30,732 nt of DNA from a virus: positions 1-30,732 of IMG/VR virus record IMGVR_UViG_3300046817_000472, one strand, 5' to 3'. The notes under the pieces are model-generated. The model was given only the letters and a program-made list of their open reading frames with translations, made no database searches and had not been told where the DNA came from. Both the position numbers and the translations under genes were made by a program. Below, one piece after another: positions 2,474-21,679 of the stretch (its first letter is position 1; every line of letters begins with the position of its first letter).

Positions 2474-2478
2474 GTGTC

Positions 2479-3788: not shown

Positions 3789-3829
3789 AGGGCGGGCAGG
3801 GTTTTCGGACCTTTCCCGCCCTCTTTTTT
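3789..3829 (+). terminator. Rho-independent terminator
   Basis: agggcggg (3789-3796) pairs perfectly with cccgccct (3815-3822), followed after one base by six Ts (3824-3829). The loop contains a smaller agg/cct pairing. This is the clearest intrinsic terminator in the window. Only 11 bases separate its T-tract from the TTG start of the large terminase, leaving no room for a promoter between them. Confidence 0.9.
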
Positions 3830-3840
3830 AGGGACGGGCG

Positions 3841-5298: not shown

Positions 5299-5301
5299 AA
5301 T

Positions 5302-7716
5302 TTGACCGACTCTCGCGCCCAAGCGTTTGAAGAGTGGCGTCAGGAAAAGCTGGCCCAGTCCCGTATGGACAAGGGCGGCTTCATCAATGAGCTTTTCAAA
5401 GCGCCAGCCAGGGGCGGATTCCAGAGTCCAATCAGTCCAGCATTTACATCTTCCAGAGCCCCAACAGGACCAAGTTATCGAAATTCCGGGAACCAGGGAA
5501 TCGGATATACCGGAACGGGCGAGTCGAAATATCTCTACGAACGCCAAGACCAGCCGCCCCCGTACATTTCCGACGTGGACATGGCGAGTACGTGGTGGAG
5601 TCCAATGGAGCCAGTTTGGCCCTATGGACCGCCGAACGTCACCAGACCCCGGGAATGGAACTATCCGGTTGGGTACAACTTAAATTACATTCCCCAACGC
5701 TCCAGCATGATGTATATGCTTCGCGCGATGCGGGCGAACTGGGGCGTGCTTGCGACCATCATCGAAACCAGAAAAGACCAGCTTCTTCGGATTCCTTGGA
5801 ACATCCAAGTCAAAGGCAAGCCAAAAGGCGACTCAGCGTCTATTGACCTGATGAAGAAGTTCTTCCGTCGGCCAGATGGAAAGCTGAGTTACGGTCAGTG
5901 GAGTCGGAAGATTCTAGACGATTTGTTTGTTCTGGATGCGCCGACGATTTACTTCTCTCGGGACCGGAAGGGAAGACCCCTTACCGCGGAAGCGTTGGAC
6001 GGAGCCACCATCTTCCCACTCATCGACGATGCTGGTCGTCGGCCCGAGTCGATCGTTGAACTTGGCGACGATGGAATAGAGTACCTTCGTCGACAGCCTG
6101 CGTTTCAGCAGATCATCTACGGTCTGCCGATGATCGACCTCGACGAGTCGGAACTCATGTATGTTCCGATGAGACCGAGGCCGGATCTTCCGGTGTTTGG
6201 CTTCCCACCGACCGAGCAAATTCTCCAAGAAGCAATCGAGGCGATTCTCAAGACCAACTACCAACGGAACTTCTGGCAGGAAGGAACTCTTCCCGATCTA
6301 GTGGTGACCGTTCCCGACGCATGGTCGCCCCGGCAGATCGCCATGTTCCAGGCACACTTTGATGCGCTTTTGTCAGGGAACTTGAAGCTCAAGTCCCATG
6401 TGAGATTTCTCCCCGGCGGGATGAAGCCCTTCGACATCAAGAATTCCTCGGGCGAAAGTCTCTGGAGTCAAAGAGACGAGACTCTGATTCGCCTCGCCTG
6501 TTACGCGTACTCGGTCTCGCCAACTCCGTTTGTGAAGGCAACCAACCGAGGCACAGCGTCAACGGTTCAAGAGGTCGCAGAACAAGAGGGTCTTTATCCC
6601 TTGATGTCGTGGTGGAAAGACGACATCATCGACCCAATCATTGAAAAGTTCGGTTTCGACGACGTCGAGTTCGTATTTCTGCCTCAGCCCGAAACAGATC
6701 AAGAAAAAGCGGCGAAGATATACGACCTACAGCTTCGTTCTGGAACCAAAACAATCAACGAAATCCGCGAAGAGCGGGGCGAAGAACCTGACCCAGACGG
6801 CAACGTTCTCCTGGTCTACACCGCCAACGGCGCGGTGCCGTTGAAGGACGTTGTTCAAGGCAAACTTATTCCGCCAACCTCAGCAGGGACTGAAGCAGGA
6901 TCGGACTCGGAGTCAAGTGCGCCTGGCTCGAAGCCGAAACCCGACTCTACTTCGTCTCCTGCTGGGGCCAGGCCAATTAGGGGGCCAAATCGACCTCCCA
7001 ATTCGAGTCCAGTTCCGACGGCGAAATTGGACAAAGCCACCAAGGCAGAATTACAAGCCGCCGCAGACCAAGCCAAAGGGCATCTGGATGATTTGAGTCC
7101 GAGTCAGGCGTCTGCGGGTAACTATCCCAAGGGGCACATCTGGATTCAGGGACTCAACATCTCAATCGAAAATAACAAAGGTTCCCTTCGAGGGGAGAAA
7201 GACACAAGTGGGAAGAAGTGGCAAGTCAGAATGCCGGCCCCATATGGTTACATTCGCGGAACCGTGGGAGCGGACGGTGATTCGGTCGACGTCTACCTGG
7301 GCAAAAATCCCAATTCTGAAACAGTTTGGGTAATCGACCAAAGACGGGTTTCCAAAAAAGGCAAGCCTAAGAAGTTCGACGAGCACAAGGTCTTCATCGG
7401 GTACAAGAAGCTCAAGACCGCGATGAAGGACTGGCTCAAGTCGCATTTCGACGACCACGGGCATGATCGAATTTCAGCGATTACTGAACTCTCGATGGAC
7501 GAACTCAAGGCTTGGTTAAAGACCGGCGATTTGAAAGAACCTCTTTCTGACCAGAACGTTGGGACTCCGGTAGATCTTCCCGACAGTTTGAAAAAGCTCG
7601 ACACGGTTTCAACCGCGACCAATTTAATCTCAACTGGAAACAGACTCCCAAAGAAACGGAAGAAAAAGAAGAAGCCTTCCCCTGGTGCGCGTTGGCTCGA
7701 ACTCGGAGCAATATAA
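5302..7716 (+). CDS. Portal fused to pyrophosphatase-like domain
   Basis: The portal forms the ring through which DNA enters the head. Residues about 95-500 look like a portal: a helical N-terminal clip region, YVPMRPRPDLPVFGFPPTEQ, then RDETLIRLACYAYSVSPTPF. A Ser/Pro-rich linker (about 524-606) leads to a second domain (about 605-740) with MPAPYGYIRGT, GADGDSVDVYLG and FDEHKVFIGY. The DGDxxDV pattern (D658, D660, D663) is the metal-binding signature of soluble inorganic pyrophosphatases, and the whole resembles the InPase domain of phage polyvalent proteins. The protein ends in a Lys-rich tail (RLPKKRKKKKK). At 804 residues it is far longer than a usual portal. The start is TTG at 5302 with GAGG (5291-5294), three bases after the large terminase stop. 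Enzyme activity is inferred. Confidence 0.88.
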   Translation: MTDSRAQAFEEWRQEKLAQSRMDKGGFINELFKAPARGGFQSPISPAFTSSRAPTGPSYRNSGNQGIGYTGTGESKYLYERQDQPPPYISDVDMASTWWSPMEPVWPYGPPNVTRPREWNYPVGYNLNYIPQRSSMMYMLRAMRANWGVLATIIETRKDQLLRIPWNIQVKGKPKGDSASIDLMKKFFRRPDGKLSYGQWSRKILDDLFVLDAPTIYFSRDRKGRPLTAEALDGATIFPLIDDAGRRPESIVELGDDGIEYLRRQPAFQQIIYGLPMIDLDESELMYVPMRPRPDLPVFGFPPTEQILQEAIEAILKTNYQRNFWQEGTLPDLVVTVPDAWSPRQIAMFQAHFDALLSGNLKLKSHVRFLPGGMKPFDIKNSSGESLWSQRDETLIRLACYAYSVSPTPFVKATNRGTASTVQEVAEQEGLYPLMSWWKDDIIDPIIEKFGFDDVEFVFLPQPETDQEKAAKIYDLQLRSGTKTINEIREERGEEPDPDGNVLLVYTANGAVPLKDVVQGKLIPPTSAGTEAGSDSESSAPGSKPKPDSTSSPAGARPIRGPNRPPNSSPVPTAKLDKATKAELQAAADQAKGHLDDLSPSQASAGNYPKGHIWIQGLNISIENNKGSLRGEKDTSGKKWQVRMPAPYGYIRGTVGADGDSVDVYLGKNPNSETVWVIDQRRVSKKGKPKKFDEHKVFIGYKKLKTAMKDWLKSHFDDHGHDRISAITELSMDELKAWLKTGDLKEPLSDQNVGTPVDLPDSLKKLDTVSTATNLISTGNRLPKKRKKKKKPSPGARWLELGAI

Positions 7717-8352
7717 ATGGCCGTAGTCCCAGACGGAAGTTGGTATCGGACTCCTCAAGGCGGTACAGTCCCGGCGAGTGCCCTCTTGGCGCCAACCGGA
7801 AATCTCGACTCCAACGGGCTACCCATCTATGGCCCGGTATCGTCTACAAATCCGGCGAACGTAACTGGACAAGTCGGCGGCTTCGTTGCTCGGGTCTCGG
7901 CGAGCTTTACCCGACCCAACAATTCGACTCCCTATGTTGTTGGCCAATTAGTTGCCAACAACACAGCAGCCGGCTCGGTCGTTCCAATGAGCTTTGCTAT
8001 TTCCCGTCTCGCGGGAAAGGGCGGAATGATCCGACGAGTGCGGCTCCGAAAGAATGGAACTGGAATTACCAACGCAAGTTTCCGGCTGCATTTATATTCT
8101 GTGGCGCCGACTCCTTCCAACGGTGATGGCGGAGCTTGGCTGACTGATCAAGCTGGAGCCTACGTTGGCTCGATGGATGTGACCTGTGATCGGGCCTTCA
8201 CTGACGGGGCGTCAGGAAATGGTGTTCCCAACACTGGAAGCGAAATCATCTTCACAGCGGATATCTATTACGGACTCCTGGAAGCCCGAGGCGCCTACAC
8301 CCCAACGGCCCAGGAAATTCTGACTCTCTTGCTCGAAGTCGTGCAAAACTAA
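7717..8352 (+). CDS. Putative virion structural protein, 211 aa
   Basis: Beta-rich, Ser/Thr/Gly/Asn-rich protein without signal peptide or membrane helix. It resembles a set of phage structural proteins of unknown role, with conserved-looking stretches VSASFTRPNNSTPYVVGQLV, GGMIRRVRLRKNGT and YYGLLEARGAYTPTAQE. The length and composition suit a decoration or fibre-associated protein with a jelly-roll-like fold, but that is inference. The ATG directly follows the portal stop (TAAATG) and has GGAG at 7705-7708. Its own stop overlaps the start of the adhesin gene (TAATG), so portal, this gene and the adhesin are probably translated in sequence. Confidence 0.65.
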   Translation: MAVVPDGSWYRTPQGGTVPASALLAPTGNLDSNGLPIYGPVSSTNPANVTGQVGGFVARVSASFTRPNNSTPYVVGQLVANNTAAGSVVPMSFAISRLAGKGGMIRRVRLRKNGTGITNASFRLHLYSVAPTPSNGDGGAWLTDQAGAYVGSMDVTCDRAFTDGASGNGVPNTGSEIIFTADIYYGLLEARGAYTPTAQEILTLLLEVVQN

Positions 8353-9650
8353 TGCTTGCTACGGCTCCACAAGACCTGTCTCTGCTAACAGGGTATCCAG
8401 CACCTTTGCTCGACTTCGATTTCGTCAACGGCGTCTATCGGCAAGACGGGGTTGGCGCAAACTCTGCAATCAGCAACTTCATCACCACTAGCCGAGCATC
8501 GGTTGGCTATGCCGACGATCAGTTGGGAAATTGGACAAGTTTCTCGGCGAACACAGCGCGAGCAGTTACTCCCGGTGGCAAGGGGCTTCTGGTCGAAGAA
8601 GCGCGTACCAACAGCATCCGCAACAATTCGATGCAGGGTGCAGTTGTTGGGACTCCAGGAACTGCACCCCTAAACTGGCAAATAAACGCGGGTACAGGAC
8701 TGACTTCATCTGTCACCCAACTTGGAACTGTTAACGGAATTGAGTTTATTGCCATTAGACTGGCGGGAACATCTGGCAGTACTTTTTCGTCTATCTACAC
8801 AGAAGCAACTACTCAAATCGCTGCGAGTAACGGACAGACATGGACAGAAAGTTTGTTCATGGGGGTGGCGGCGGGCGCTACCAACGTAAATACTGTTTTC
8901 CCTGTGATCCAGCAGTATGCCGGCGGGGGTGGCTTTCTTTCAGCTTTGAACGGTCTTAATTTTCTGCCCTCTTTAGGACCGACTGCCACAACTAGGATCG
9001 TCAACACACAGACGACAAACAACGCCTCGACAGCCTTCGTCCGCGCGGGCATTCAGATCAATTACAATTCTGGCGTTGCCGTTGACATTACCTTGCTGAT
9101 TGGCTGGCCCCAGCTTGAACTTGGCGCATTCGCTACGAGTCCAATCCGCACTACCAATGCAGCAGCTACGAGAGCGGCCGATAAAGCGACACTAACCAAC
9201 CCGTCAACAGTGACTAACGTACAAACGCTTGGTGCCCAATTCGTCAGCTTAACCAACAACGGTACTCCTGCAATTTTAGATGTTAGTGACGGTACAGCAA
9301 ATAACCGAAACACATTATTGGTCAATAGTGCCTCTGGGCAGAATGCTTCGGGAGCCAGCGTTATATCTGCGGGGGCACAAAATCCCCGCCTAGACGGTAG
9401 TGGCCCCTATATAGTAAATACTCTTGTAAAGGCTGCATATGCGTCGCAGCCAGGACAACGTGCATTTGCGTCAAACGGGGGCGTAGTTAGTTCCTCCATT
9501 AACATGGGAACTCTTACTGGACTTACAACCATAAGTATTGGCACTTTTGGAGCCGGAGTGGCGGGATTCGCAAATGCATATATTCGTCGAATTATGCTGT
9601 GGCCAACTACGTACTTGTCGAATATATCTTTACAAAGACTGACTCTGTAA
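8352..9650 (+). CDS. Putative tail fibre / adhesin-like virion protein
   Basis: A 432-residue, beta-rich protein probably exposed on the virion. The N-terminal part has LLDFDFVNGVYRQDGVG, then FITTSRASVGYAD, then GKGLLVEEARTN, a pattern common in phage adhesins with lectin-like sandwich domains. A central WPQLELGAFATSPIRT motif marks the end of a carbohydrate-binding-like module. The C-terminal third is Ser/Asn/Ala-rich and ends with a YIRRIMLWPTTYLS segment. A sugar- or receptor-binding role is inferred. The ATG overlaps the previous stop by one base, and its own TAA overlaps the next ATG. Bases 9240-9650 look more AT-rich than the neighbours, suggesting exchange. Confidence 0.65.
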   Translation: MLATAPQDLSLLTGYPAPLLDFDFVNGVYRQDGVGANSAISNFITTSRASVGYADDQLGNWTSFSANTARAVTPGGKGLLVEEARTNSIRNNSMQGAVVGTPGTAPLNWQINAGTGLTSSVTQLGTVNGIEFIAIRLAGTSGSTFSSIYTEATTQIAASNGQTWTESLFMGVAAGATNVNTVFPVIQQYAGGGGFLSALNGLNFLPSLGPTATTRIVNTQTTNNASTAFVRAGIQINYNSGVAVDITLLIGWPQLELGAFATSPIRTTNAAATRAADKATLTNPSTVTNVQTLGAQFVSLTNNGTPAILDVSDGTANNRNTLLVNSASGQNASGASVISAGAQNPRLDGSGPYIVNTLVKAAYASQPGQRAFASNGGVVSSSINMGTLTGLTTISIGTFGAGVAGFANAYIRRIMLWPTTYLSNISLQRLTL

Positions 9651-10069
9651 TGTCTCAGATCGACGCCATGTTCAAATTCGCCTCGCTGGCCGCCGCCAAG
9701 GCCGATCCTGTCGTGCAGCATTACATGGCGTTGGACGACTCCCAGCAAGCGCAGTTCCAACTGAGCGTCATCATTCCAGGCGTTCAGGTTTGGAGAGCAA
9801 GTCAGGATGTCGCTGGCACCGATGGAGATGGAAACCCAACGGTGACTCATACCTTCCTGCCGGGCTACTTTATCTTCGTCTCAGCCGACCATGTAATCCC
9901 CGAGCTTCGCGACCATCCGGCCTTACAAGTCGCAGTTGACAGGGACAAGATGAACGCTCGGCAGGCAGGCATGGTGCTCAAGAGCACCATTACCAACAGT
10001 CTGCTGCAAGACCTCCGGTTTCAGCCAATCTACGCGGGAATGGACCCGCCATGGGGGAATTGGAGATGA
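9650..10069 (+). CDS. Hypothetical protein linked to adhesin, 139 aa
   Basis: Soluble protein without a recognised domain. The N-terminal helix (MSQIDAMFKFASLAAAKADP) is followed by beta-like sequence around IPGVQVWRAS and FLPGYFIFVSAD and a helical C-terminus. I start it at ATG 9650, which overlaps the adhesin stop (TAATG); the open frame extends to 9599, but that part overlaps the adhesin. The last bases overlap the lipoprotein start (ATGA). Similar small proteins often accompany phage fibre genes, so a chaperone or minor virion role is possible but not shown. Confidence 0.6.
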   Translation: MSQIDAMFKFASLAAAKADPVVQHYMALDDSQQAQFQLSVIIPGVQVWRASQDVAGTDGDGNPTVTHTFLPGYFIFVSADHVIPELRDHPALQVAVDRDKMNARQAGMVLKSTITNSLLQDLRFQPIYAGMDPPWGNWR

Positions 10070-10791
10070 GAATCTTTGCTGGGGCATTGTTGCTGCTGTT
10101 TCTTAGTGCTTGCGGGCAAGGCGGAATTGGAACAGGTCCAGTAACAATCTCCGACCCAATGGCGTATCTGGCACAGTCGAAGAAGCCAGACGGAAATGTT
10201 TCGACTCCACTCTCAGGAACCGACGGAATGGTTTATCGTAGGTTCGACTTTGGACATGTCCAGGCCGAGGACAGCTTTCTAACCGGGCCAACAACGGCGA
10301 TCACGGCCTGGAGCTATTCTCCCTGGGGTGAATTTGTCGACTCCAACGGTGACGGTGGGGAAGTCTATTCCCTCCAAGGAAACATAGTCCATATCACCAG
10401 CACCAAGCATCTGGGAGTACCGACAACACCGATCTCTTGGGTAGCGTTGAGGACCGACACGATTGACTGTTCTCAAGGATGGACATCTTATTCGGTCCTG
10501 GAACGAGGTTGTAAGGCGACGGTTTCTTATCCCAACATCGGACCGATAGACACTATCATCAGCGAACACCTGAATCCGGTTGAACGGTTTGTCGAACGCA
10601 TCTTCCTTGGCCGTGGTTGGGGACGTTTAGCCTGGCAAACGTTCCGGGCAACGGGCGCCCCAGCTCCCGACCGTTGTCCTTCGTTCGGCTGGAACGAATA
10701 TCAGAACTGGATACTGACCGACTGTCGCTATGTTGTGAACATCGAACCGGCAAACGGAACATTGTCTGGTTCGATGCTCTGGCATCCATAA
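10066..10791 (+). CDS. Predicted phage lipoprotein
   Basis: The 241-residue product opens with a lipoprotein signal: basic start (MR), hydrophobic core (AGALLLLFL), lipobox L-S-A-C with the modified Cys at residue 16, then GQGG. In Gram-negative hosts such proteins are lipid-anchored in the envelope. The mature part contains four other Cys, enough for two disulphides, plus Trp and Gly, and looks like a secreted beta-rich domain; no family is recognised. The ATG at 10066 overlaps the previous stop (ATGA), with GGGGGA (10052-10057) upstream. Lipoproteins in late phage operons can block superinfection by binding receptor or help lysis; either is inference. It is the only obviously exported protein in the window. 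Confidence 0.7.
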   Translation: MRIFAGALLLLFLSACGQGGIGTGPVTISDPMAYLAQSKKPDGNVSTPLSGTDGMVYRRFDFGHVQAEDSFLTGPTTAITAWSYSPWGEFVDSNGDGGEVYSLQGNIVHITSTKHLGVPTTPISWVALRTDTIDCSQGWTSYSVLERGCKATVSYPNIGPIDTIISEHLNPVERFVERIFLGRGWGRLAWQTFRATGAPAPDRCPSFGWNEYQNWILTDCRYVVNIEPANGTLSGSMLWHP

Positions 10792-10826
10792 ACATGGCAA
10801 ATACTCAAACCTAAAGGAGAAGGTAA

Positions 10827-11510
10827 ATGTCGACAGTGCAGTTGAATGCCGCCGCGATCGGCGGACTGATTCAAACCGGGTTTTCGGGAAATGTGCAAGT
10901 CCCGGCAGACGGCCTCATTACCGTCGACACCCGGGACGCGGCAAATTTGCTCGCGGCAGGATGCAGCTACGTTCGAGCAACGACTCGGCAACAGACCATC
11001 ACCACTCCCGCTGCCGGCGCGGTCGGGCAGTTGGTTGCGTCAACGGCGTTTTCTAACGGCACCAAGACGATCGCCAACCAGCCGGATGTGGCCAGGTTAG
11101 CTTCCGTTCGAATTGACCCCGGGACCTCTGCCATCACGGCGGGAAATGTCGCAGTTTCCTACATTGCGCTCGATGGAACCACCACGGTCGACAATCTTTC
11201 GGCCGTGACTGCGGCGAGCACGGTTCTGAGTCAGAACATCTCCAAGGGCATCGTGAAGCTGAATTCGCTTGTGGTTACTGCGGTCGCCGGCGGCGCCAGC
11301 CCAGGAATCCAGATGGACACGCTGAACCAGCTGGGCGTCATGGCCGACCCAGGCTATGTCGATTTCTCGGTCCTGGATCTGAAGGTCGATGGCGTGGACT
11401 CGGGCGTTGCGAGCGTCGCAACTGCTGCAGCTTGCTTCACTCCGTCGACGGCGCCCAACGGCACCCACACCTACAACGTCATCGCGAACTTCAATTCGCC
11501 GGTGACCTGA
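10827..11510 (+). CDS. Putative virion structural / decoration protein
   Basis: A 227-residue protein rich in Ala, Thr, Val and Gly, with no signal peptide. The N-terminal part (VQVPADGLITVDTRDAANLL) resembles small phage head proteins; the rest is repetitive beta-strand-like sequence ending in a probable Ig-like or jelly-roll region (VDFSVLDLKVDGVDSG). It has one of the strongest Shine-Dalgarno sequences of the window (AAAGGAGAAGG, 10813-10823), which suggests a high-copy protein such as capsid decoration. It lies between the lipoprotein and the glycosyltransferase cassette. A fibre-associated role is the main alternative. Confidence 0.55.
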   Translation: MSTVQLNAAAIGGLIQTGFSGNVQVPADGLITVDTRDAANLLAAGCSYVRATTRQQTITTPAAGAVGQLVASTAFSNGTKTIANQPDVARLASVRIDPGTSAITAGNVAVSYIALDGTTTVDNLSAVTAASTVLSQNISKGIVKLNSLVVTAVAGGASPGIQMDTLNQLGVMADPGYVDFSVLDLKVDGVDSGVASVATAAACFTPSTAPNGTHTYNVIANFNSPVT

Positions 11511-11525
11511 AGGGAGTCTGATCCG

Positions 11526-12896
11526 TTGCCCACCGCTGCTGCGCTAGTACAGACGGGAATCGAGTTTCAGAGTCAAGGAGATCTTGAGGCTGCTCGGCTT
11601 CATTATCTCGCAGCTCTGAAACTGGATTCGAACTGTGTCCAAGCCATCGCGAACCTGTGCGTCGTGTTGGCCGAGACTAACCGACTTGAAGGTGCAGCAG
11701 CATTAGCCTGGAAGCTCGTCGACCTGGTTCCTTTCAATGGAAACTTCTGGGAACTGTTGGGGAACTTTCTAACAAGGCTGGAGCGGTTGGACCTGGCCGA
11801 ATATGCCTTCGATCAGGCGATAGGACTGAGTCCAGAGTCTCCGAGCATCCACCATAATCTGGCGTTGTGTCTGTTGAGGCAGAGAAAATATCAACAGTCG
11901 ATCGCAGCGTTCGAGCGCGCAGAGAAGCTCGGATCAAGGGGTCACGGAATCAAGAACGACAAAGCCCATGCCTTTATGGCCCTGGGAAACCTGAAACAAG
12001 GTTGGGAATTGTATGAGTCCCGGTGGGATACCTTGGTTCACCTTCCACCGTGGGATTATCACATTCCCGAGTGGAAGGGAGAAAATCTGACAGCAACCCG
12101 AATCCTTATTCATGGCGAACAAGGTCTTGGCGACACGATCATGTGTTCAAGATTCTTTCGTGACCTCGCCGACTGGGATTGGGCAGATGTGACTCTGGGA
12201 GTTCCCAGAACCCTTCAGAACTTGTTTTCTGCCCAGGATTGGAACCTGAACATCTTGCCGATTGAGGACATGAACGAAGAAAACATGAAGGGCTTTGATT
12301 ATCAGAGTCCAATGTATTCGGCAATGAGATATTTGGAAATTGACTCGCCAAAGGACGTTTCATCAAAGGCTTATTTGAAGGTCCCGGAACCGAGAAAGTT
12401 CGAGTCTGATTTTAACATCGGACTCTGTTGGGCTTCTGGCCGCCGTGGAACCGAGATGGACGCTCGGCGAAGAGAAGCTGACTTGAAGCTGTTTCTCCCC
12501 CTGATCGAGAATCCGAAATTCAAAATCTGGTCACTTCAGAAAGGGACCAACGAAGAAGACATTTCAAACCTGGGTCTTGAAGGTCTTGTTTCCGACGAAA
12601 CCGGAATGTTCTCAGATTTCTACGAAACGGCGAAATTCATTTCAGGCTTGGATCTGGTTTTGACAGTTGACACTGCGGTCGCCCATCTCTCGGGGGCGCT
12701 GGGCATACCGACTTTCATGCTAGCCCAATTCTCCAACTGCTGGAGATGGTGGAACATTGAGAATGGATCGGGCGAGCCCTGGTACTCGGGAATGAGAATC
12801 TTCAGACAATCAGTTCCGGGCGATTGGAAAGGCCCAGTCACAGCGGCAATTAACCAGATCAATCTGGGTCTGGTCCAGAGGAAGATTGCAGCGTGA
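11526..12896 (+). CDS. TPR-glycosyltransferase (GT9/GT41-like)
   Basis: Residues 1-135 contain about three to four tetratricopeptide repeats (for example LEAARLHYLAALKLDSNCVQ and LAEYAFDQAIGLSPES). From about 187 a GT-B glycosyltransferase-like region follows: ILIHGEQGLGDTIMCSRFF, later NIGLCWASGRR, then LVLTVDTAVAHLSGALGIP with a W-rich end (CWRWWN). These match TPR-linked GT9/GT41-like proteins, which transfer sugars to protein or lipid-linked glycans. Substrate cannot be read from the sequence. The start is TTG at 11526 with AGGGAG (11511-11516). Its stop overlaps the next start (GTGA), beginning a tightly coupled four-gene unit. Confidence 0.8.
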   Translation: MPTAAALVQTGIEFQSQGDLEAARLHYLAALKLDSNCVQAIANLCVVLAETNRLEGAAALAWKLVDLVPFNGNFWELLGNFLTRLERLDLAEYAFDQAIGLSPESPSIHHNLALCLLRQRKYQQSIAAFERAEKLGSRGHGIKNDKAHAFMALGNLKQGWELYESRWDTLVHLPPWDYHIPEWKGENLTATRILIHGEQGLGDTIMCSRFFRDLADWDWADVTLGVPRTLQNLFSAQDWNLNILPIEDMNEENMKGFDYQSPMYSAMRYLEIDSPKDVSSKAYLKVPEPRKFESDFNIGLCWASGRRGTEMDARRREADLKLFLPLIENPKFKIWSLQKGTNEEDISNLGLEGLVSDETGMFSDFYETAKFISGLDLVLTVDTAVAHLSGALGIPTFMLAQFSNCWRWWNIENGSGEPWYSGMRIFRQSVPGDWKGPVTAAINQINLGLVQRKIAA

Positions 12897-13549
12897 TTTA
12901 TACCATTTACCACCAAGCGCGCCCGCACGAGTCCACAGACGCTTGTCAGGCTATCTTTGTCGGCCGGCCAATCGGAAACAACATCGCGCATCTTGAAACC
13001 TTAGCTGAGATGCGGGCACACTTCTGGATCTGGAAGAACAAAAATCCTATGTTCTGGGTCGGCTTCCAGCATTATCGGAGATACTTGGACCTGAGAAACA
13101 CTGACTCCAGGGCGAAGATTGAAGTCACAGAGCCCCAACCGCAGGAAGAAATTCCCGCTTGGGTTGAGGACTTCGACGTGATCGTCCCCAGGGCTTGGCA
13201 AATGAATCGGAATCTGACGGTCGGGGAACAATTCTGCGAGGCTCATGGAAACGAAGCCTGGAACCAGATGTTGGCGCTTGTTCCTGACTTTGAAAGATAT
13301 TCCAAACGAAACTCCTATCATGTTTGTAACATCTTTCTGACTCGGTGGGAGATTTTCGCCCGGTATATGGAATTTTGGTGGGATCTTTCCCAGAGCCTCC
13401 TGAGAACAGTTTCTGTGCCTGAGAACTCCTACCAACATCGGATTCTGGGCTTTCTGTCCGAACGAATCTGGAGCTTCTGGTTAGATCGAGAACAAGAACG
13501 AACCGGAATCAAAATTTTCGAGGTCCCGCTGATGTTGGTGACTCCATGA
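12893..13549 (+). CDS. DUF4422-type glycosyltransferase-like protein
   Basis: The 218-residue product shows the DUF4422 pattern found in capsule and O-antigen loci: NIAHLETLAEMRAHFWIWKN, then VGFQHYRRYLDL, the VIVPRAW strand, the YHVCNIFLTRWEIFARYMEF block, and a C-terminal GFLSERIWSFWLDRE motif. Members are regarded as GT-A-like sugar transferases; the exact reaction is unknown. It starts with GTG, overlapping the TPR-glycosyltransferase stop by four bases, and ends overlapping the next start (ATGA). No signal peptide or membrane helix, so it acts in the cytoplasm. Confidence 0.75.
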   Translation: MIYTIYHQARPHESTDACQAIFVGRPIGNNIAHLETLAEMRAHFWIWKNKNPMFWVGFQHYRRYLDLRNTDSRAKIEVTEPQPQEEIPAWVEDFDVIVPRAWQMNRNLTVGEQFCEAHGNEAWNQMLALVPDFERYSKRNSYHVCNIFLTRWEIFARYMEFWWDLSQSLLRTVSVPENSYQHRILGFLSERIWSFWLDREQERTGIKIFEVPLMLVTP

Positions 13550-14241
13550 AGATCTCCCTTCCAGATGTGACGGTTGTGGTCATTGACACGGTTTGTCACA
13601 GCTTGGCCCTCGAAGCAATCAAGGACACAGTTCGTGAGATCGAGCCGGCGGAGATTCTGGTTTGGAGCGATCGGAAACAGTTTCCCTTCTGTGATGTGAT
13701 TCCCACAGGGGCGAAATCTTTCGAAGAAGTTGGAAAAATCCTCTGGTACGATGTGCCGAAAACAGTCAAGACCAGTCATTTCCTCGTCGTTCAATGGGAC
13801 GGTTGGGTACTTGACGCAGGGAATTGGAACCCGAATTGGCTGGATCGAGATTACATCGGCGCTCCGTGGTGGCATCGGGACGGGCTCAACGTCGGAAACG
13901 GTGGATTTAGCCTTCGATCAACCGACTTGGCGAAATTCATTGCTAAGAACCAACAAATTTTTCCACTGGCGAACCCCGAAGACGTGGCGATTTGCCGGCA
14001 CTATCGAAAGACCCTGGAACTCTTGGGCTTTAGCTTCGGCTTAGAGTCAGAAGCAAGAAAATTCTCTTTCGAACGAACCGAACGGGTTTCAAGTTTCGGG
14101 TTTCATGGGATTTTCAACTGGGGAAAAGTCCTCTCCCCGGACAAACTTCTCTCCCGACTCGAACTGGTGAACGACTATGTTCGTTCCAGGCCCGAGTGGG
14201 CGGAGTTCTGGACTCAGGCAAGGACTCTTATCAGTGCATGA
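13546..14241 (+). CDS. DUF5672-type glycosyltransferase-like protein
   Basis: The 231-residue product matches the DUF5672 pattern: VTVVVIDTVCHSLALEAI at the N-terminus, FLVVQWDGWVLDAGNW, DYIGAPWWH, VGNGGFSLRS, PEDVAICRHYRKTLE, and FGFHGIFNW near the end. The family is linked to GT-A-like sugar transfer; QWDGW takes the place of the usual metal/nucleotide-sugar acidic motif. Donor and acceptor are unknown. It overlaps the DUF4422 gene by four bases and the methyltransferase by eight, so the proteins are likely made in fixed ratio and used together. Confidence 0.75.
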   Translation: MKISLPDVTVVVIDTVCHSLALEAIKDTVREIEPAEILVWSDRKQFPFCDVIPTGAKSFEEVGKILWYDVPKTVKTSHFLVVQWDGWVLDAGNWNPNWLDRDYIGAPWWHRDGLNVGNGGFSLRSTDLAKFIAKNQQIFPLANPEDVAICRHYRKTLELLGFSFGLESEARKFSFERTERVSSFGFHGIFNWGKVLSPDKLLSRLELVNDYVRSRPEWAEFWTQARTLISA

Positions 14242-14806
14242 TACAGCCAGAGAGACGGGGAAGGCATTCTTCGAAACCTATGGGCCGGGGAAGAAGTCTG
14301 TCCTCGACGTGGGCTCGTTCGATGTCAATGGAACGTTAAAAGATTATGTTCCTGACGATATGAACTACTGCGGAACTGACATTTCTTCCGGCCCGAACGT
14401 GAACGTGGTTCTTGACGATCCGCATCGGTTTCCATTTGTTTGTGAGGAATTTGACCTCATCGTTTCGACTTCCTGTTTCGAACACGACGATATGTTTTGG
14501 CTCACCTTTTCCGAAATGTGTCGGATCGTAGCGCCCGGAGGATTTATTTACATTTCAGCTCCTGTTGCAGGAGCAGTCCATAATCATCCTATCGACGCCT
14601 GGAGGTTCTATCCCGACGCAGGGATAGCTCTCGCCCGTTGGGGTGAGAGAAATCTGGAGCCAATTTCACTCATTGAGTCGTTTATTCGTCCACCTGGCTC
14701 AGAAGGCTGGTCGGACTTCGTTGCGGTTTTTGCCAAAAGACCGTTCGGAAGGCCAGTGAATCTTTTAGTTAGTCAGTTTCCAAACGCAATGCACGTAAGG
14801 ACTTGA
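14234..14806 (+). CDS. SAM-dependent methyltransferase (class I)
   Basis: The 190-residue product has the class I methyltransferase layout: motif I SVLDVGSFDVNGTLKD, a second strand ending in YCGTDIS, the VVLDDPHRFPFVCEEFDLIV segment, SCFEHDDMFW, then IVAPGGFIYISAP. The type-11-like fold uses S-adenosylmethionine; the acceptor is not readable, but within a sugar-transfer cassette a sugar or glycan O-methyl cap is likely. I chose GTG at 14234 because it is in frame, overlaps the previous stop by eight bases, and has AAGGA (14219-14223) upstream; the open frame reaching back to 14177 would lie inside the DUF5672 gene. It is the last gene of the coupled cassette. Confidence 0.8.
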   Translation: MHDTARETGKAFFETYGPGKKSVLDVGSFDVNGTLKDYVPDDMNYCGTDISSGPNVNVVLDDPHRFPFVCEEFDLIVSTSCFEHDDMFWLTFSEMCRIVAPGGFIYISAPVAGAVHNHPIDAWRFYPDAGIALARWGERNLEPISLIESFIRPPGSEGWSDFVAVFAKRPFGRPVNLLVSQFPNAMHVRT

Positions 14807-14838
14807 ATCGAGCCTAACCTTCAACAAAGGAGAGTATG

Positions 14839-15069
14839 ATGGCGACGGTAACGAAAGTGACTTCGGGAAGCACCACGACCTACACTGTCACAGACGCCCA
14901 GGGCAACGCGGCGACCTTGGCGGTTCTGGTCAATCCCGTGACCGGGAACGTGATTACTTACGGCGGTGCAGCCGTCCACAATGACGCGACGGCGATGATC
15001 AGTCAGCTATTGCTTCAGTTGCGAACGGGACTCCTGCCCGGCGCCGGCGCCCAGAATCTTCAGCCTTAG
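14839..15069 (+). CDS. Small phage protein, 76 aa
   Basis: A Thr/Val/Gly-rich protein with an N-terminal beta-like half (VTSGSTTTYTVTDAQGN) and a helical end (ATAMISQLLLQLRTGLLPG). The family is not recognised. Two adjacent ATGs exist (14836 and 14839). AAAGGAG (14826-14832) is better spaced for the second. The strong ribosome-binding site suggests good expression, as for virion components. It lies just after the glycan cassette and 38 bases before a small membrane protein. Confidence 0.6.
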   Translation: MATVTKVTSGSTTTYTVTDAQGNAATLAVLVNPVTGNVITYGGAAVHNDATAMISQLLLQLRTGLLPGAGAQNLQP

Positions 15070-15107
15070 GGCGAACCAGCCAACTCGGAGAGAAAAGGGG
15101 GCCAAGA

Positions 15108-15272
15108 ATGATTATCGAGATCCTTTTTGTCGTGACCATGTTCCTCTGGTTCTTGGCCCTTCTGCCTTTCCAGCCGGTTGAACCCTACCGGCCCTATGCG
15201 ACTACCTGGCTCGCGTTCGTGGCGATCCTGTTGCTGGGAGTCCATGTTTTCGCCGGATACCTGGTGAGATAA
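15108..15272 (+). CDS. Small two-helix membrane protein, 54 aa
   Basis: A 54-codon gene starting at ATG 15108, with AAAAGGGG (15093-15100) upstream, ending in TAA at 15270-15272. It encodes two hydrophobic helices: residues about 2-19 (rich in Ile, Leu, Phe, Val, Trp) and about 34-50 (TTWLAFVAILLLGVHVF), joined by a polar, Pro-rich loop (QPVEPYRPY). Two short transmembrane helices in under 60 residues fit small phage membrane proteins, including some holins, but the position among head genes gives no lysis partner. Function is therefore open. A roughly 490-base stretch without a confident gene follows. Confidence 0.6.
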   Translation: MIIEILFVVTMFLWFLALLPFQPVEPYRPYATTWLAFVAILLLGVHVFAGYLVR

Positions 15273-15765
15273 GGTTTCGGTCGTTGAAATTTGCGCTTCA
15301 GATACGCAGCGGTCTAGTGGGCCAAGTTTGCCGACTGAAAGAGGCGGCGGGCTGCGGCGATTTTTCGCCGGCTCAGGGACTCGATTGCGTTGACGGAACG
15401 GCCAGCCCGAGGTGGCGCGACTGGGCACGTGACGTAATCGCTTACGTGTCGGCCGAGGCTGCCCACCGACTCTGTCGACGGGTGCCGCTGGTGACAGCAT
15501 ACAGCCTAGCTGACTGGAGCCTTTCGCGGACTGGGTGGCCCAGACTAGACTCAAAGTCTTTTTTGGGCCAACACCCAGAATTTGTACCTTGAACAAAATT
15601 GGTCAAGACGCCGCTCGGTATGTTTCAAGATCTTCGACGTCGGAACATTGTTCGCTTTGTTCTATGTTTCGAGGTCCAAGCTCTTGCACCCTCGTTCAGG
15701 GGATTACTTCGCCGAACGGTTGGTGTCGATACTTCGATCGAAAACCTCTTGGGAAGGTAAGCGAA
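15273..15765 (+). other. Structured intergenic region before the protease gene
   Basis: About 490 bases without a confident gene but rich in inverted repeats. cggcga (15355-15360) pairs with tcgccg (15365-15370). acgtaa (15432-15437) pairs with ttacgt (15442-15447). ctggg (15531-15535) can pair either with cccag at 15539-15543 or, with tggccca (15536-15542), against tgggcca (15564-15570) and cccag (15574-15578). Inside the longer form is a 5-bp hairpin, agact (15547-15551) with agtct (15555-15559), followed by a T-run. Exclusive alternative pairings plus a T-run look like a regulatory leader or terminator switch. I cannot match it to a known RNA class. Confidence 0.45.
15284..15592 (+). CDS. 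Doubtful ORF, 102 aa
   Basis: An open frame from TTG 15284 with AAGG (15271-15274) nine bases upstream. The product is Arg/Trp/Cys-rich, with no recognisable domain. It fills most of the hairpin-rich stretch. Because the same bases form several good stems and the protein looks unremarkable, I think a non-coding structured RNA is at least as likely. Listed so a reader can weigh it. Confidence 0.2.
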   Translation: MKFALQIRSGLVGQVCRLKEAAGCGDFSPAQGLDCVDGTASPRWRDWARDVIAYVSAEAAHRLCRRVPLVTAYSLADWSLSRTGWPRLDSKSFLGQHPEFVP

Positions 15766-17799
15766 ATGCCGGATGATTTCAAACTCTTCCTTCCGATTTC
15801 GAAGGTTGAGAAGCAGAACGACGGGTCGGTGACGATTTCGGGCTATGCGTCAACGCCGGCGTTGGATCTCGATGGCGAAATTGTCAGCCTTGATGCTGTC
15901 AAAAAAGCCCTTCCGGGTTATATGGCTTGGCGGAACATTCGCGAAATGCACCAGCCGCGAGCGGTCGGAGTCGCGAAAGAAGCCAACGTCGACGAAAAGG
16001 GACTGTTCCTTACTTCCAAGATCGTCGACAAGGCCGCGGTGGAGAAGGTTCTCGAAGGCGTTTACAAGGGCTATTCGATCGGTGGGCGGAAGCTCGCCAA
16101 AACCGGGAACACGATTACCGAGATCGACCTGGTCGAGATTTCGATTGTCGACCGGCCAGCGAACCCGGAATGTCCGTTTTCAATTGCCAAGTCGGCGAAA
16201 GCCTTTACCGACTCGACTGTTGGTTATCTCGTCAAGACCGCTTCTCCGCCCCGGGACCCCAAAGCGCGTGCTCTCGGCCAGATGGCGAAAGCAGTTCGGA
16301 CTCTCGCGAAGGCCCCACCGGCGGCTCACGATGGACTGTCACTTCCTGCTCCGATGAAATGCGCTGCACATGGGCTTCTCGACTGCAAGAAGTGCATGAA
16401 AGCCGCGAAGAAGGCGGAAAAAATCAAGAAACGTGAGGTTTCGGAACAGGAACGTTCTCGACTCGCTGGGACTGGGGCTGCCCTTCCCGACGGTTCCTTT
16501 CCGATTGCCAACCGGTCTGATCTTGCCAATGCCCGGCAAGCTGTGGGTCGGGCGAAAGACCCTTCCAAGGCTCGGGCGCATATCAAAGCGCGGGCGGAAG
16601 CTCTCGGAGTCACACTTCCCGACAACTGGAAAAAGAAAGAAGCTTCGGCGTTGATCCAGTCCGCCGAAGACTCGCTTCTGAAACTTGACCCAAGTCCTGC
16701 GTCCGAGCTGTCCTTTCTGACCCTGGACGCCGGAGAGAAGCCTCGCCGCGATGGGGCTTCTTTGGGTAAGCGTCGATCTGGCCATGAGTCGATGCTTGAG
16801 GTCGACCTCGACCTTCAGAAAGGCGGCAATGGCGCGGACGAGGATTTTTTGGACTTGAAATTTGTGCAACCTTCTGAGGACAGAACGATGACAGTACAGG
16901 GTGACGCGTTGACGAAGTGGCTGATCGAGAACGGGATGGCGGATGTCGTCCAGAAGGCTCGGCAGGGTTCTCCGATGACTCGGGCGGCTCGCATGGCCGA
17001 CGCCAGGGGGAACTTGAAGAAGGTCAAGAAGGCTCGCGGTGGCGCGGCTGCGGCGATCGAGGACGCCCACAAGGTCTTGAAGGCGGCCTACTTGTCGAAA
17101 CAAGCTCTCATCAAGGCCGGCAAGAAGCCGCCGATGGATGACGACGGCGACTTCGACATGGGCAAGGTCATGGGATCGCTTCAGAAAGCCTTCGGCGAGC
17201 TGACGACCATGAAGACCTTCATCAAGGCTGCCGATGGTCAGCTGAAGAAGGCTGCTTCTCGCGCCGGCCAGCGGGGCCAGGAAACCACCGACGGGAACGA
17301 GTTCTACCAGGTTCCTGCGGGAGTGAAGGATCTGAATCAGAGCGATCTTACGTCTGCCGGTCCGGGTTCGGGGCGTGGTTCGGAACCTCCGATGTATCCG
17401 GTCGACGGTGGCGTCTATCCCGGCAAGTCGGCAAAGAGCAAAGGCATGATTTCGGTCGACCACGCTGAAGCGATCGCCAAGGCTGCTGCTGCCGAAGCCA
17501 AGGTCGAATTGCTGGAACGGGCGCCGATTGGTCCTTCCGGTCGCCGGCCCTATTCGTTCGATGTGACGAAAGCCTTCTCCGGCAACGGAAAGAATGCTGC
17601 GTCAAACAACGAGGCGACGAAAACGCTGTTCGACGGCGTCGATCCTGCTGCCTTGATGTCCGGCGACGAGCACGCCCACACGGCTGCAACCGCGCGGGTG
17701 ATCGGCAACATGCTGACTCATCCTTCCACCTTCGGCAAGAGCGTGCTGTTCGACCCCAACTTCAAGGGAGGGGCCGGCTTCAAGGCACAAAATTCCTAA
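15766..17799 (+). CDS. Prohead protease-scaffold fusion (XkdF-like)
   Basis: A 677-residue protein. Residues 1-140 resemble XkdF-like prohead serine proteases: SVTISGYASTPALDLDGEIV, MHQPRAVGVA (candidate catalytic His62), GVYKGYSIGGRK (Ser104), and EIDLVEISIVDRPANPEC, which carries acidic candidates. A C199/H202/C207/C210 cluster follows. Residues about 230-290 look like DUF6582 (LPDGSFPIANRSDLANARQA, then KARAHIKARAEALG). The rest is Ala/Lys-rich and helical, as expected of a scaffold. Such proteases trim scaffold and coat protein during head maturation. The start is ATG at 15766 with GGGAAGG (15751-15757). The open frame reaches back to 15535, but that part is not convincing. The major capsid gene begins 46 bases downstream. 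Confidence 0.85.
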   Translation: MPDDFKLFLPISKVEKQNDGSVTISGYASTPALDLDGEIVSLDAVKKALPGYMAWRNIREMHQPRAVGVAKEANVDEKGLFLTSKIVDKAAVEKVLEGVYKGYSIGGRKLAKTGNTITEIDLVEISIVDRPANPECPFSIAKSAKAFTDSTVGYLVKTASPPRDPKARALGQMAKAVRTLAKAPPAAHDGLSLPAPMKCAAHGLLDCKKCMKAAKKAEKIKKREVSEQERSRLAGTGAALPDGSFPIANRSDLANARQAVGRAKDPSKARAHIKARAEALGVTLPDNWKKKEASALIQSAEDSLLKLDPSPASELSFLTLDAGEKPRRDGASLGKRRSGHESMLEVDLDLQKGGNGADEDFLDLKFVQPSEDRTMTVQGDALTKWLIENGMADVVQKARQGSPMTRAARMADARGNLKKVKKARGGAAAAIEDAHKVLKAAYLSKQALIKAGKKPPMDDDGDFDMGKVMGSLQKAFGELTTMKTFIKAADGQLKKAASRAGQRGQETTDGNEFYQVPAGVKDLNQSDLTSAGPGSGRGSEPPMYPVDGGVYPGKSAKSKGMISVDHAEAIAKAAAAEAKVELLERAPIGPSGRRPYSFDVTKAFSGNGKNAASNNEATKTLFDGVDPAALMSGDEHAHTAATARVIGNMLTHPSTFGKSVLFDPNFKGGAGFKAQNS

Positions 17800-17845
17800 G
17801 TCGGGCACGTTCGCCCACGTTTAACCCAATCCAAGGAGACTTTGA

Positions 17846-19501
17846 ATGCCCGACGGTAACATGATGCAGGTTCCCTTCACGGGACCGAATGGTATCGGCA
17901 ACGAATTTGTCGCCTCGTTGTTCGAGAATGAGAACTTCCAGGCGATGATCGACAAACGCTTTGGCGGGTTGGCTAAAGCCGATACGATCGCGCAAGCAAC
18001 GAACCTTCTTTGGTACGACCTGCGCCCGGTCGTCCAGATGCTCTATCCCTATCGGGAATTGATTCCGCGGATTTCACGGCTTCCGCGAGTCAGTGCCGAT
18101 GGCGGCACCGCGTTCAACTGGAAGCGGATCACTGGAGTCAACGTCAACGGCGCGTCGAGCGGCGTGTCGGAAGGCAACCGCGGCGCCCGGATCGCGATTT
18201 CCGAACAGGACATGCTGTCGGCATTCCGAACCCTGGGTTTCGAAAGCTCGGTCACATTCGAAGCGCGGCTCGCGGGAAGGAATCTCTCCCCGGATACGTT
18301 GGGGCTTTCGGTCCAAAGTTCCCTACGATCCCTGATGATCGACGAGGAGAAAATCCTCATCAATGGCAACGCAGGGCTTCCGCTGGGCACGACACCGACT
18401 CCGGCTCTCGTTGCTGGTGCGGTTTCGGGCGTTACCGGAACCATCAACGGGACGATTTACGTCGCGTGTGTTGCTCTCACCGGCATGGGGCAGTTGGGTT
18501 ATTCGACCTACAACTCCACGACCGGTTTGGGTGGTGTGCTCGGGCAGGTCACCAAGACCAACGCCGACGGTTCAACCGACACCTATGGCGGTGGCTCGGC
18601 GAAACCTTCGGCCGTTGCGTCGGCAGCTCCGACCGGCACCCAGGCCGTCACGGCGGCGGTTGCGGCAGTCACGGGCGCCTCTGCCTACGCTTGGTTCGCG
18701 GGAACCGCGGCGAATGCGCTCTACTATGCTGGACTTACTCCCAGCAACCAGGCGATCCTGTCGAAGTATCCGTCGACTTCCGGCCAGCCGATGACCAATC
18801 TTCAGGTCGCCGGGAACTATCAGGACAATTCGACCGATATCCTGATCCCGGACGGGGTTTTGACCCAGATCGTTGGCTCGATCACTGGCGCGGCGCCCGG
18901 AACGGCGATGGCGACCAATCCCATTCTGCCTTCGGGGATTACGTTGTCGGCCAGCGGCTCGATTATCTACACGATGGGTTCGGGCAACACTGGGGTCACG
19001 ATCTCGGGGACGAATATCCTCGAATTCGATGCGATCTTGCGCGCCGCTTACGACCAGTACAAGCTCGGCTACGATCGGATCTTGGTGTCGTCGGTTGAGA
19101 CCGCGGACATCTGGGGTGCGTTCCTGGCCCAAAGCGCCAACGCGTCGAGCTTCCGCATCTTGTTCGACGCCGACCAGGAAACCGGACGGATCGTTGCAGG
19201 TCGGAGAATCACCTCCTACCACAACAAATTCTTCGGCAACACGCTCGATGTCGAAGTGCATCCGTACGTTCCGCCCGGGACCGTGATCTTCTGGTCGGAC
19301 AGGTCGCCCTACGAACTCTCGGGTGTGGCCAACTTGATCGAGGCGAAGGTTCGGCAGGACTACTATCAGATCCAGTGGCCTTGGTCGACTCGGCGGTATG
19401 AATACGGCGTGTACGTCGACGAGACGTTCCCGATCTACTTCACGCCGAGCTTTGCGCTGCTGACGAACAAGAACCCGAGCAGCGGCACGATGGTGTTCTA
19501 G
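17846..19501 (+). CDS. Major capsid protein with large insertion
   Basis: A 551-residue coat protein, expected to have the HK97 fold and form the head shell. The N-terminal 175 residues include an arm and helix region (FGGLAKADTIAQATNLLWYD), RITGVNVNGASSGVSEGNRG and LMIDEEKILING. The C-terminal part (from about 390) includes FDAILRAAYDQYKLGYDRIL, SFRILFDADQETGRIVAGRR and a final beta-rich section ending SGTMVF. Between them, about 178-388 is a Gly/Ala/Thr-rich, beta-like insertion with an FN3- or Ig-like feel (GTIYVACVALTGMGQLGYS, then AVTGASAYAWFAGTAANALY), probably displayed outside. AAGGAG (17833-17838) precedes the ATG at 7 bases, as suits an abundant protein. Confidence 0.88.
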   Translation: MPDGNMMQVPFTGPNGIGNEFVASLFENENFQAMIDKRFGGLAKADTIAQATNLLWYDLRPVVQMLYPYRELIPRISRLPRVSADGGTAFNWKRITGVNVNGASSGVSEGNRGARIAISEQDMLSAFRTLGFESSVTFEARLAGRNLSPDTLGLSVQSSLRSLMIDEEKILINGNAGLPLGTTPTPALVAGAVSGVTGTINGTIYVACVALTGMGQLGYSTYNSTTGLGGVLGQVTKTNADGSTDTYGGGSAKPSAVASAAPTGTQAVTAAVAAVTGASAYAWFAGTAANALYYAGLTPSNQAILSKYPSTSGQPMTNLQVAGNYQDNSTDILIPDGVLTQIVGSITGAAPGTAMATNPILPSGITLSASGSIIYTMGSGNTGVTISGTNILEFDAILRAAYDQYKLGYDRILVSSVETADIWGAFLAQSANASSFRILFDADQETGRIVAGRRITSYHNKFFGNTLDVEVHPYVPPGTVIFWSDRSPYELSGVANLIEAKVRQDYYQIQWPWSTRRYEYGVYVDETFPIYFTPSFALLTNKNPSSGTMVF

Positions 19502-19570
19502 ACTGGTTTCGCGGCTGGTCTTTCTAGGTCCTACTTCTCTTTCTGTTAATCATGGCCAAGGAGATTTTCG

Positions 19571-20011
19571 ATGTGGATGATGTTCCCAGAAGGTGTCACG
19601 GAAGTATCCGTTGAGCAGATGAACTTCGTTGCGGAGGTCCACGACGAAGAGAAGCACGGATATTTTCGGGCACCGGACCATCTGGTTCCGAGTCTGATCG
19701 ACTTGACGAAATGTGTTGTTCGGGTTCCTCCGGTCGATCATCCGGATGATTTGCCGCCGACGGCTCTGACCACAGCAACGTCCGATCTCGCGATTGCGAA
19801 CGAGAACTTGCGGAATGAAAATTCCGACCTGCGAGGAAGCATTGCGGAGCTGAACGTGAGGGTTTCTGACCTGATGCTTCAGCTTCATGAAGCCAAGACG
19901 GAGCTGAACAACTTCAAGTTCGAGCAGGAGCAGAAGGGAACGGAAACATCGGAAGCCTCTTCCGAAACTCCCATGATCGGTGTTGAGACTTCTTCCCGCA
20001 AGAAAGGCTAA
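19571..20011 (+). CDS. Coiled-coil protein after capsid, 146 aa
   Basis: Residues 1-60 are compact and mixed (EGVTEVSVEQMNFVAEVHDE, GYFRAPDHLVPSL). Residues about 66-115 form a clear heptad-type coiled coil (LAIANENLRNENSDLRGSIA onward), and the last 30 residues are Ser/Thr/Glu-rich with a Lys tail. No family name is certain. The position directly after the major capsid protein, with a good AAGGAG (19558-19563), suggests a minor head or head-tail protein; a head fibre is another possibility. It is followed six bases later by the connector gene. Confidence 0.6.
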   Translation: MWMMFPEGVTEVSVEQMNFVAEVHDEEKHGYFRAPDHLVPSLIDLTKCVVRVPPVDHPDDLPPTALTTATSDLAIANENLRNENSDLRGSIAELNVRVSDLMLQLHEAKTELNNFKFEQEQKGTETSEASSETPMIGVETSSRKKG

Positions 20012-20883: not shown

Positions 20884-21201
20884 ATGGCCAATGACACTAG
20901 CCCGGAACCTGTTCAGCTTCCTGGGAATATAGGAAAACTCATTCTCGATCCTCTTGAGCATTCGATCGCGGCGGGGGCGAGAGAGGCGCTGAAGGTTGGA
21001 GTTCCAACCCACAACGTGGTCGAGATGTTTCTGAACCATCTCGCTTCTGTGGTCGCAATGATCGAGCCCGCTGGGGCAAGGGCAGCCACGGTCGAAGGAC
21101 TCGTGAACAGCTTCGGAACTATGGTCCATAAACATGTTGAGGCCCAAAGAACCACAAAAAGCGGCCTTCTGGTTCCTCGGCCGGAATTAGTCAATGGCTG
21201 A
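20884..21201 (+). CDS. Hypothetical neck-region protein, 105 aa
   Basis: A small helical soluble protein (LILDPLEHSIAAGAREALKV, then NVVEMFLNHLASVVAMIE) with a short polar tail. No family recognised. It starts two bases after the connector stop and overlaps the cysteine-cluster gene by eight bases. Its location between connector and tail terminator suggests a minor structural or assembly role. Confidence 0.6.
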   Translation: MANDTSPEPVQLPGNIGKLILDPLEHSIAAGAREALKVGVPTHNVVEMFLNHLASVVAMIEPAGARAATVEGLVNSFGTMVHKHVEAQRTTKSGLLVPRPELVNG

Positions 21202-21679
21202 TTGCGGCGCGTGCAATCTCTGCTGCAAACTTCTCGCTGTCCCTGACATCGGCAAACCTGCTCGGATGCTGTGTTGGCACACGGGACTCCACGGCGGCTG
21301 TGCGGTTCATAGGGAAAAAGAAACCGACCCGAAACTCACCGCCTGCCATCAATGGAAGTGCGTTTGGCTCGCGTCTCAGGGACTTGAGGATGAAACCAAA
21401 CGTGGCAGTCGGATGCTTCGGCCCGATATGTGCCATGTGGTTCTTGGGCCGTTTGATCGGGACGATCCGCATTTGCTTTATGTCCAGGTCGATCCAGCAT
21501 ACCCTGCGGCGTGGAAAAACTCCCACGTTCAGGCGTACCTCTCCGAAGTCATTTCCAAAGGCGCCAGGATTGAAGTCATCATTGATGAAGTGAGGTTTCG
21601 TTGGGATGGGGAAAGGTGTATGCCTGTTGAAGAGGCTTCCGAGTATGCCCAAGCCCATGCCGAGCGAGAGATCGCCTGA
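21194..21679 (+). CDS. YkgJ-like cysteine-cluster protein
   Basis: The 161-residue protein has C4-x2-C7-x2-C10-C11 at its N-terminus, then C27, C36, C51 and C56, the CxxCxxCC pattern of YkgJ-family zinc/iron-chelating domains. The second half has no further Cys cluster and is mixed alpha/beta (LLYVQVDPAYPAAWKNSHVQ, EVIIDEVRFRWDG). Metal binding is a family-based inference; the role is unknown even in bacteria. It overlaps the gene before by eight bases and the gene after by one (TGATG), so it belongs to the neck operon. Confidence 0.75.
   Translation: MADCGACNLCCKLLAVPDIGKPARMLCWHTGLHGGCAVHREKETDPKLTACHQWKCVWLASQGLEDETKRGSRMLRPDMCHVVLGPFDRDDPHLLYVQVDPAYPAAWKNSHVQAYLSEVISKGARIEVIIDEVRFRWDGERCMPVEEASEYAQAHAEREIA

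Follow-up and report, generated by a model that had tools for sequence, protein, structure and literature searches.

The late structural region of an uncultured soil phage (IMG/VR record IMGVR_UViG_3300046817_000472) contains a group of sugar-transfer genes directly behind a gene for a probable capsid-surface protein, and we examined both in the window, by which we mean the whole 30,732-base stretch that was analyzed. On the + strand of the window lies a block of terminase, portal, prohead protease, capsid, connector, tape-measure and tail genes, and a preliminary description had placed within it four overlapping genes (11526-14806) belonging to named families: a tetratricopeptide repeat (TPR) glycosyltransferase, hereafter TPR-GT, a DUF4422 protein, a DUF5672 protein and a methyltransferase. 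All four open reading frames (ORFs) are intact, co-directional and inside the late block, they match Pfam families, and their neighbors are those described, namely portal (phrog_2662), an S78-type prohead protease and a major-capsid-like protein. TPR-GT and DUF4422 share 4 base pairs (bp), GTGA at 12893, as do DUF4422 and DUF5672, ATGA at 13546. The methyltransferase overlap reported earlier is also present, at 65 bp only when the longest ORF is read from ATG 14177, and at 8 bp from GTG 14234, which gives a protein of 190 residues and is probably the start, because the related contigs L046 and L027 have homologues whose first residue corresponds to this position or lies close to it. The four genes are translationally coupled, as had been proposed, but the unit is larger than that. 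Since TPR-GT begins at TTG 11526, 15 bp past the TGA of the preceding gene (at 11510) and with an AAGGGAG ribosome-binding site, this preceding gene, which we call dec, belongs to the same unit, which thus comprises five genes. The TTG start is backed by homologues beginning MPxAxEL. A promoter and terminator scan of positions 3500-20000 returned fewer sites than were found in shuffled sequence.

Table. Positions of the dec/TPR-GT unit and associated genes in the window, with proposed functions and the basis for each.
Feature	Position	Strand	Basis or remark
dec, 227-residue all-beta protein, proposed acceptor	10827..11510	+	Probable capsid-surface (decoration or spike) protein; family, model, linkage
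TPR-GT, proposed initiating protein O-glycosyltransferase	11526..12896	+	N-terminal TPR (residues ~1-150) and C-terminal GT-B (~185-435)
DUF4422/GT111-type glycosyltransferase, proposed second-sugar transferase	12893..13549	+	PF14393, E 1e-28
DUF5672 protein, proposed sugar-transfer or glycan-tailoring enzyme	13546..14241	+	PF18922, E 4e-15
Class-I S-adenosylmethionine (SAM) methyltransferase, proposed glycan O-methylase	14234..14806	+	Methyltransf_11 PF08241, E 9e-7; phrog_32762, E 4e-15
77-residue conserved small protein, ending the module in many relatives	14836..15069	+	Homologues after the glycosyltransferase block
Head spike fibre-domain protein	8352..9650	+	NF048003 GTA_spike_fiber, E 9e-15, 55.6 bits (cut-off 36); phrog_5939 tail protein, E 8e-18

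The window proteins were mapped on 52 viral-contig loci that encode a relative of the window capsid protein, and dec was counted by profile searches across the fetched loci, with the window and near-identical contigs taken as one. Twenty-eight distinct contigs carry dec, and one of these (L061) ends shortly after the gene, leaving 27 that could be evaluated. TPR-GT is the next substantial gene after dec in 25 of the 27, often 4-50 bp away, and in L102 it lies on the other side of the portal gene from dec. The usual gene order is portal-dec-GT-protease-capsid, where GT denotes TPR-GT; it is dec-GT-portal-capsid in L048, L049, L052 and L096, and the finding of both genes upstream of portal in these contigs indicates that the pair moved together. 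The region is covered in the records of L032, L036 and Brevundimonas phage Polewnik, and neither gene is present in them. Whether the sugar genes travel with an adhesin or decoration gene had been named earlier as a check, and for TPR-GT and dec they do, also across the change in gene order. The four genes do not form a conserved cassette, since only dec and TPR-GT are kept; DUF4422 was found in 0 of 30 other records, in a search for which the control genomes likewise gave no match. The conserved unit in this uncultured phage lineage is therefore dec plus TPR-GT.

The dec family has 15 members with a mean column identity of 52%, and the AlphaFold model made with these 15 sequences has a predicted local distance difference test (pLDDT) score of 91. 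Comparison of the model with PDB gave no fold matches at E ≤ 0.001, generic beta-sandwich hits being disregarded, and the best structural matches in BFVD are uncharacterized phage proteins. Serine and threonine make up 20% of dec in the window and 22% on average in the family, compared with 15% across the structural-block proteins of the window, and several Ser/Thr columns are conserved. The protein is probably displayed on the capsid surface. INPHARED held no dec homologues and only four, weak homologues of TPR-GT, so that a cultured model phage was not found, and bacterial genomes yielded no members of the dec family and hence no prophage host. Similarity to dec also occurs elsewhere in relatives: a second short protein in L023 (3840-4343) shares the ~55 residues at the N-terminus of dec, and in L052 a weak dec match lies at the C-terminus of a terminase-like ORF (2222-4132). 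These two matches hint at the existence of a small domain for attachment.

In Pfam searches TPR-GT matched TPR repeats (E 2e-13) and, weakly, Glyco_transf_9 (E 0.0024). Its AlphaFold model (pLDDT 91) has a C-terminal GT-B domain of the OGT/SPINDLY fold, and the best PDB hits obtained with Foldseek were SPINDLY and OGT (E 1e-13 to 1e-11), with identities of 12-16% in the structural alignments. An EQGxGD motif is invariant across 17 homologues, and a VD(T/S)AxAH-type motif is present in most. TPR-GT thus resembles OGT and SPINDLY (GT41) in combining a TPR domain with a GT-B fold, but differs from them in that sequence similarity was detected only in the TPR part, which is all that the best OGT and SPINDLY matches of a profile search span. 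The catalytic part, with the L024 protein as query, had no sequence match in PDB, and we therefore regard TPR-GT as OGT-like by architecture and fold, and not as a demonstrated GT41 member. The earlier identification as a TPR-glycosyltransferase holds for the TPR and GT-B domains, with the amendment that the catalytic domain is weakly GT9 by hidden Markov model and nearest to SPINDLY and OGT by model. Since these two best fold matches both modify proteins in solution, a protein acceptor is favored, and we propose from the model that TPR-GT would transfer a sugar to Ser or Thr of a protein bound by its TPR domain.

A different target would be the phage DNA, if the enzymes produced glucosylated or otherwise hypermodified bases. 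Some phage glycosyltransferases are directed at DNA, as in T4, and a nucleoside deoxyribosyltransferase-like gene stands behind TPR-GT in L096. We consider this explanation highly improbable and rejected it, since the thymidylate synthase/dCMP hydroxymethylase family was found in 0 of 9 relatives' records, and the TPR domain, the SPINDLY/OGT fold and the late structural context all oppose DNA modification.

TPR-GT genes were also seen beside other proteins in more distant phages. An unrelated podovirus from Manatee Spring (MW202512; L057, 11542-18085) has a TPR-GT, an FkbM methyltransferase, a galT-like gene and a putative acyltransferase right after its capsid gene, and these constitute a parallel cassette. 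Among distant phages (L103-L154), the TPR-GT neighbor is often a small Ser/Thr-rich protein of ~230-280 residues, often in divergent orientation to TPR-GT, which starts MGRSTFEGP or MGRALKIQK. Searches of PHROGs and INPHARED yielded no name for those tested, and we therefore do not claim generality beyond the present lineage.

Within the lineage, contigs L013, L015 and L082 carry TPR-GT without dec (the upstream region of L014 is not covered), and a collagen-like gene, encoding a fibre, stands in for dec: it immediately precedes TPR-GT in L015 and L082 and lies one gene further upstream in L013. The TPR-GTs of L013, L014, L015 and L082 form one clade nested among dec-linked TPR-GTs. Their catalytic domains are as distant from those of dec-linked enzymes (0.553) as the latter are from each other (0.548), and the corresponding distances for the TPR domain are 0.72 and 0.64. 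The ratio of TPR to catalytic divergence in this clade (1.32) is the highest of the multi-member clades, save for a sub-clade of this same clade, and such greater divergence of the TPR domain is what would be predicted if this domain reads the acceptor.

Covariation was evaluated as the correlation between pairwise distances. For dec and TPR-GT, r was 0.70, compared with 0.42 for dec and portal and 0.41 for dec and capsid, and the partial correlation of dec with TPR-GT given portal was 0.63 (p 0.0005). These values bear on the main rival to dec as acceptor, which is that TPR-GT glycosylates another virion protein, such as the spike fibre, the capsid or a tail protein, and that dec is linked to it only through a common recombining slot. 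The head spike fibre is encoded close by, TPR-GTs occur without dec (in L013, L015, L082 and L100), and linked neighbors are co-inherited, so that linkage is not by itself proof of an enzyme-substrate relation. Nevertheless, L023 was the sole other relative in which a spike-fibre homologue was found, and there it lies beyond the capsid gene, whereas dec keeps its place beside the glycosyltransferase; the pair stays intact even where the portal gene switches side, and the two genes covary beyond portal and capsid. We accordingly judge another virion acceptor to be unlikely.

The genes behind TPR-GT vary among relatives. The DUF4422 protein aligns in a phmmer search to residues 64-281 of WbbM (6u4b; E 1e-13), that is, it is homologous to the GT111 N-terminal domain of this enzyme, and it is a candidate UDP-Galf transferase by this resemblance. 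Among viral contigs its gene is present in only two, which are identical across it. DUF5672 proteins are encoded in 11 of 30 relatives' records, at times 10-20 kb away, and gave no meaningful hits in PDB; in L049, a single ORF of 1068 residues combines TPR-GT with DUF5672 and another GT9-like region, which backs a common pathway. Homologues of the window methyltransferase, 50-64% identical, lie behind TPR-GT in L027, L028 and L046. Also found in this position are FkbM methyltransferases (L019, L023, L024), a TylF-like O-methyltransferase (in L027), a methyltransferase (in L085) and an epimerase (L096), and these additional genes are of sugar-tailoring types. In several contigs, for example L006, L008, L039, L044, L050 and L052, no other recognized sugar gene follows dec and TPR-GT. 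Homologues of the 77-residue protein follow the glycosyltransferase block in L008, L013, L015, L019, L023, L024, L043, L044 and L046.

The enzymes might instead alter a surface polysaccharide of the host, either to exclude superinfection or to prevent adsorption to debris, in the manner of serotype conversion. Methyltransferases can act on surface glycans, and the DUF4422 protein resembles an O-antigen enzyme, WbbM from Klebsiella, in which DUF4422 forms the GT111 domain that acts as UDP-Galf transferase (PMC12269835). WbbM is a bifunctional O-antigen polymerase, whereas the DUF4422 protein of the window is a single-domain phage protein. The genes themselves are part of the head operon, and no membrane segment is apparent in the four proteins, in which the highest 19-residue Kyte-Doolittle mean is at most 1.46. 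Neither the GtrA flippase nor a GT2 (GtrB-type) enzyme was found in the nine long lineage records (0 of 9 each), which may be incomplete, so that this absence is not proof. A tyrosine integrase is encoded in 2 of 30 records, at least 6 kb from TPR-GT, and is absent from the other 28. Finally, the TPR-OGT fold suggests protein acceptors, and the conserved partner is dec. Host-surface modification thus appears improbable, and the lack of GtrA, GT2 and a nearby integrase in these records speaks against a gtrABC-type serotype-conversion cassette. The preliminary description had likewise reported no flippase and no membrane anchor, and had preferred a virion protein to host antigen as the target of glycosylation and methyl capping; this preference is favored by the dec linkage, the O-glycosyltransferase fold and the failure to find GtrA and GT2 in the nine records.

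We therefore consider it probable that a TPR-guided cytoplasmic O-glycosyltransferase modifies dec, and that the glycan is then lengthened and methylated by the variable enzymes. In this scheme dec, a Ser/Thr-rich all-beta protein that probably resides on the capsid, would be made late in infection. TPR-GT, a soluble enzyme of the OGT/SPINDLY type encoded by the next gene, would grip newly made dec with its TPR domain, and its GT-B domain would attach a first sugar to Ser or Thr. Extension or tailoring of the glycan may then fall to the DUF4422 (GT111-like) and DUF5672 enzymes and capping to the methyltransferase, which would give the particle a phage-specific coat of methylated sugar. Several observations weigh against this proposal. 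No TPR-GT was detected in L074, which carries dec, and dec is missing from L100, which carries TPR-GT. The dec protein has no characterized homologue, and we infer its place in the virion from gene position alone. Foldseek TM-scores of TPR-GT to OGT and SPINDLY are low, ~0.35 over the query, and the only characterized relative of DUF4422 acts on O-antigen. A single swap event underlies the greater divergence of the TPR domain, and among dec-linked enzymes the singleton L050 (ratio 1.33) is equally extreme. The bootstrap interval for the difference between the dec/TPR-GT and dec/portal correlations (-0.03 to 0.66) includes zero, and the covariation therefore supports the proposal and does not decide it.

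Nearby, the spike fibre-domain gene suggests that the slot between portal and protease holds head-surface proteins, or so it seems. Three other genes in the window are of separate interest. At the C-terminus of the portal protein (5302-7716), fused to the portal domain, is a domain resembling inorganic pyrophosphatase (PF18823 InPase, residues 601-740, E 1e-42). In the head operon, gene 10051-10791 encodes an N-terminal signal with a lipobox-like LLLLFLSAC and had no NCBIfam, Pfam or PHROG matches; it may be a lipoprotein moron, acting for example in superinfection exclusion. Among the tail-connector genes, 21194-21679 encodes a small Cys-rich protein (CGACNLCC...) that is kept in relatives, is possibly metal-binding and had no PHROG match.

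To our knowledge, virion glycosylation has been demonstrated in few phages, mainly mycobacteriophages. Among these, Che8, Corndog and Myrna encode enzymes that glycosylate their own capsid and tail tube proteins (Freeman et al., 2023, Cell Host Microbe, as cited in PMC12363180 and PMC12691614), and virion glycosylation is thus not the undescribed system that had first been suggested. The mycobacteriophages and the present phage have phage-encoded glycosyltransferases in common, and the acceptor here is a proposed one. The available portions of these sources do not describe a TPR-OGT architecture or a dedicated neighboring acceptor, and it is by description, not by sequence, that the systems are set apart. 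For TPR-guided modification, the precedent is FlmG of Caulobacter crescentus, whose TPR domain binds flagellin and whose TPR and GT-B domains are both needed for modification in the cytoplasm (PMC7591256). Like TPR-GT, FlmG has an N-terminal TPR and a C-terminal GT-B domain, and it is a cytoplasmic enzyme that modifies a subunit of a surface structure; unlike TPR-GT, it is cellular, acts on flagellin and uses a pseudaminic acid donor. The two were compared by architecture, not sequence, and since a flagellin gene was near only 1 of 79 loci of cellular TPR-GT relatives, genomic context does not enter the comparison. The head spike fibre of RcGTA binds host capsule (PMC10218006), and the window has a spike-fibre-domain gene in the slot that also holds dec, whereas the available part of that source describes no glycosyltransferase partner. 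The open-licence papers searched contained no description of a conserved two-gene unit of TPR-GT and a capsid-type protein from environmental phages. What is new is therefore the enzyme-partner pair, while phage virion glycosylation (mycobacteriophages) and TPR-guided O-glycosylation (FlmG) were already known.

It is also possible, and we advance this only tentatively, that capsid glycosylation in these phages is modular, with TPR-GT locked to one exchangeable acceptor (dec or a collagen-like fibre), an adapting TPR reader and fast-changing tailoring enzymes that would make the particle glycan specific to each phage. Since viral contigs contain over 500 stretches with relatives of TPR-GT, such a system could be widespread. 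If the proposal is correct, the linked acceptor and TPR-OGT-like enzyme would provide a simple two-gene system for the study of substrate choice by TPR domains, and would point to sugar coats being a common trait of phage particles, with a bearing on phage adsorption, stability and recognition.

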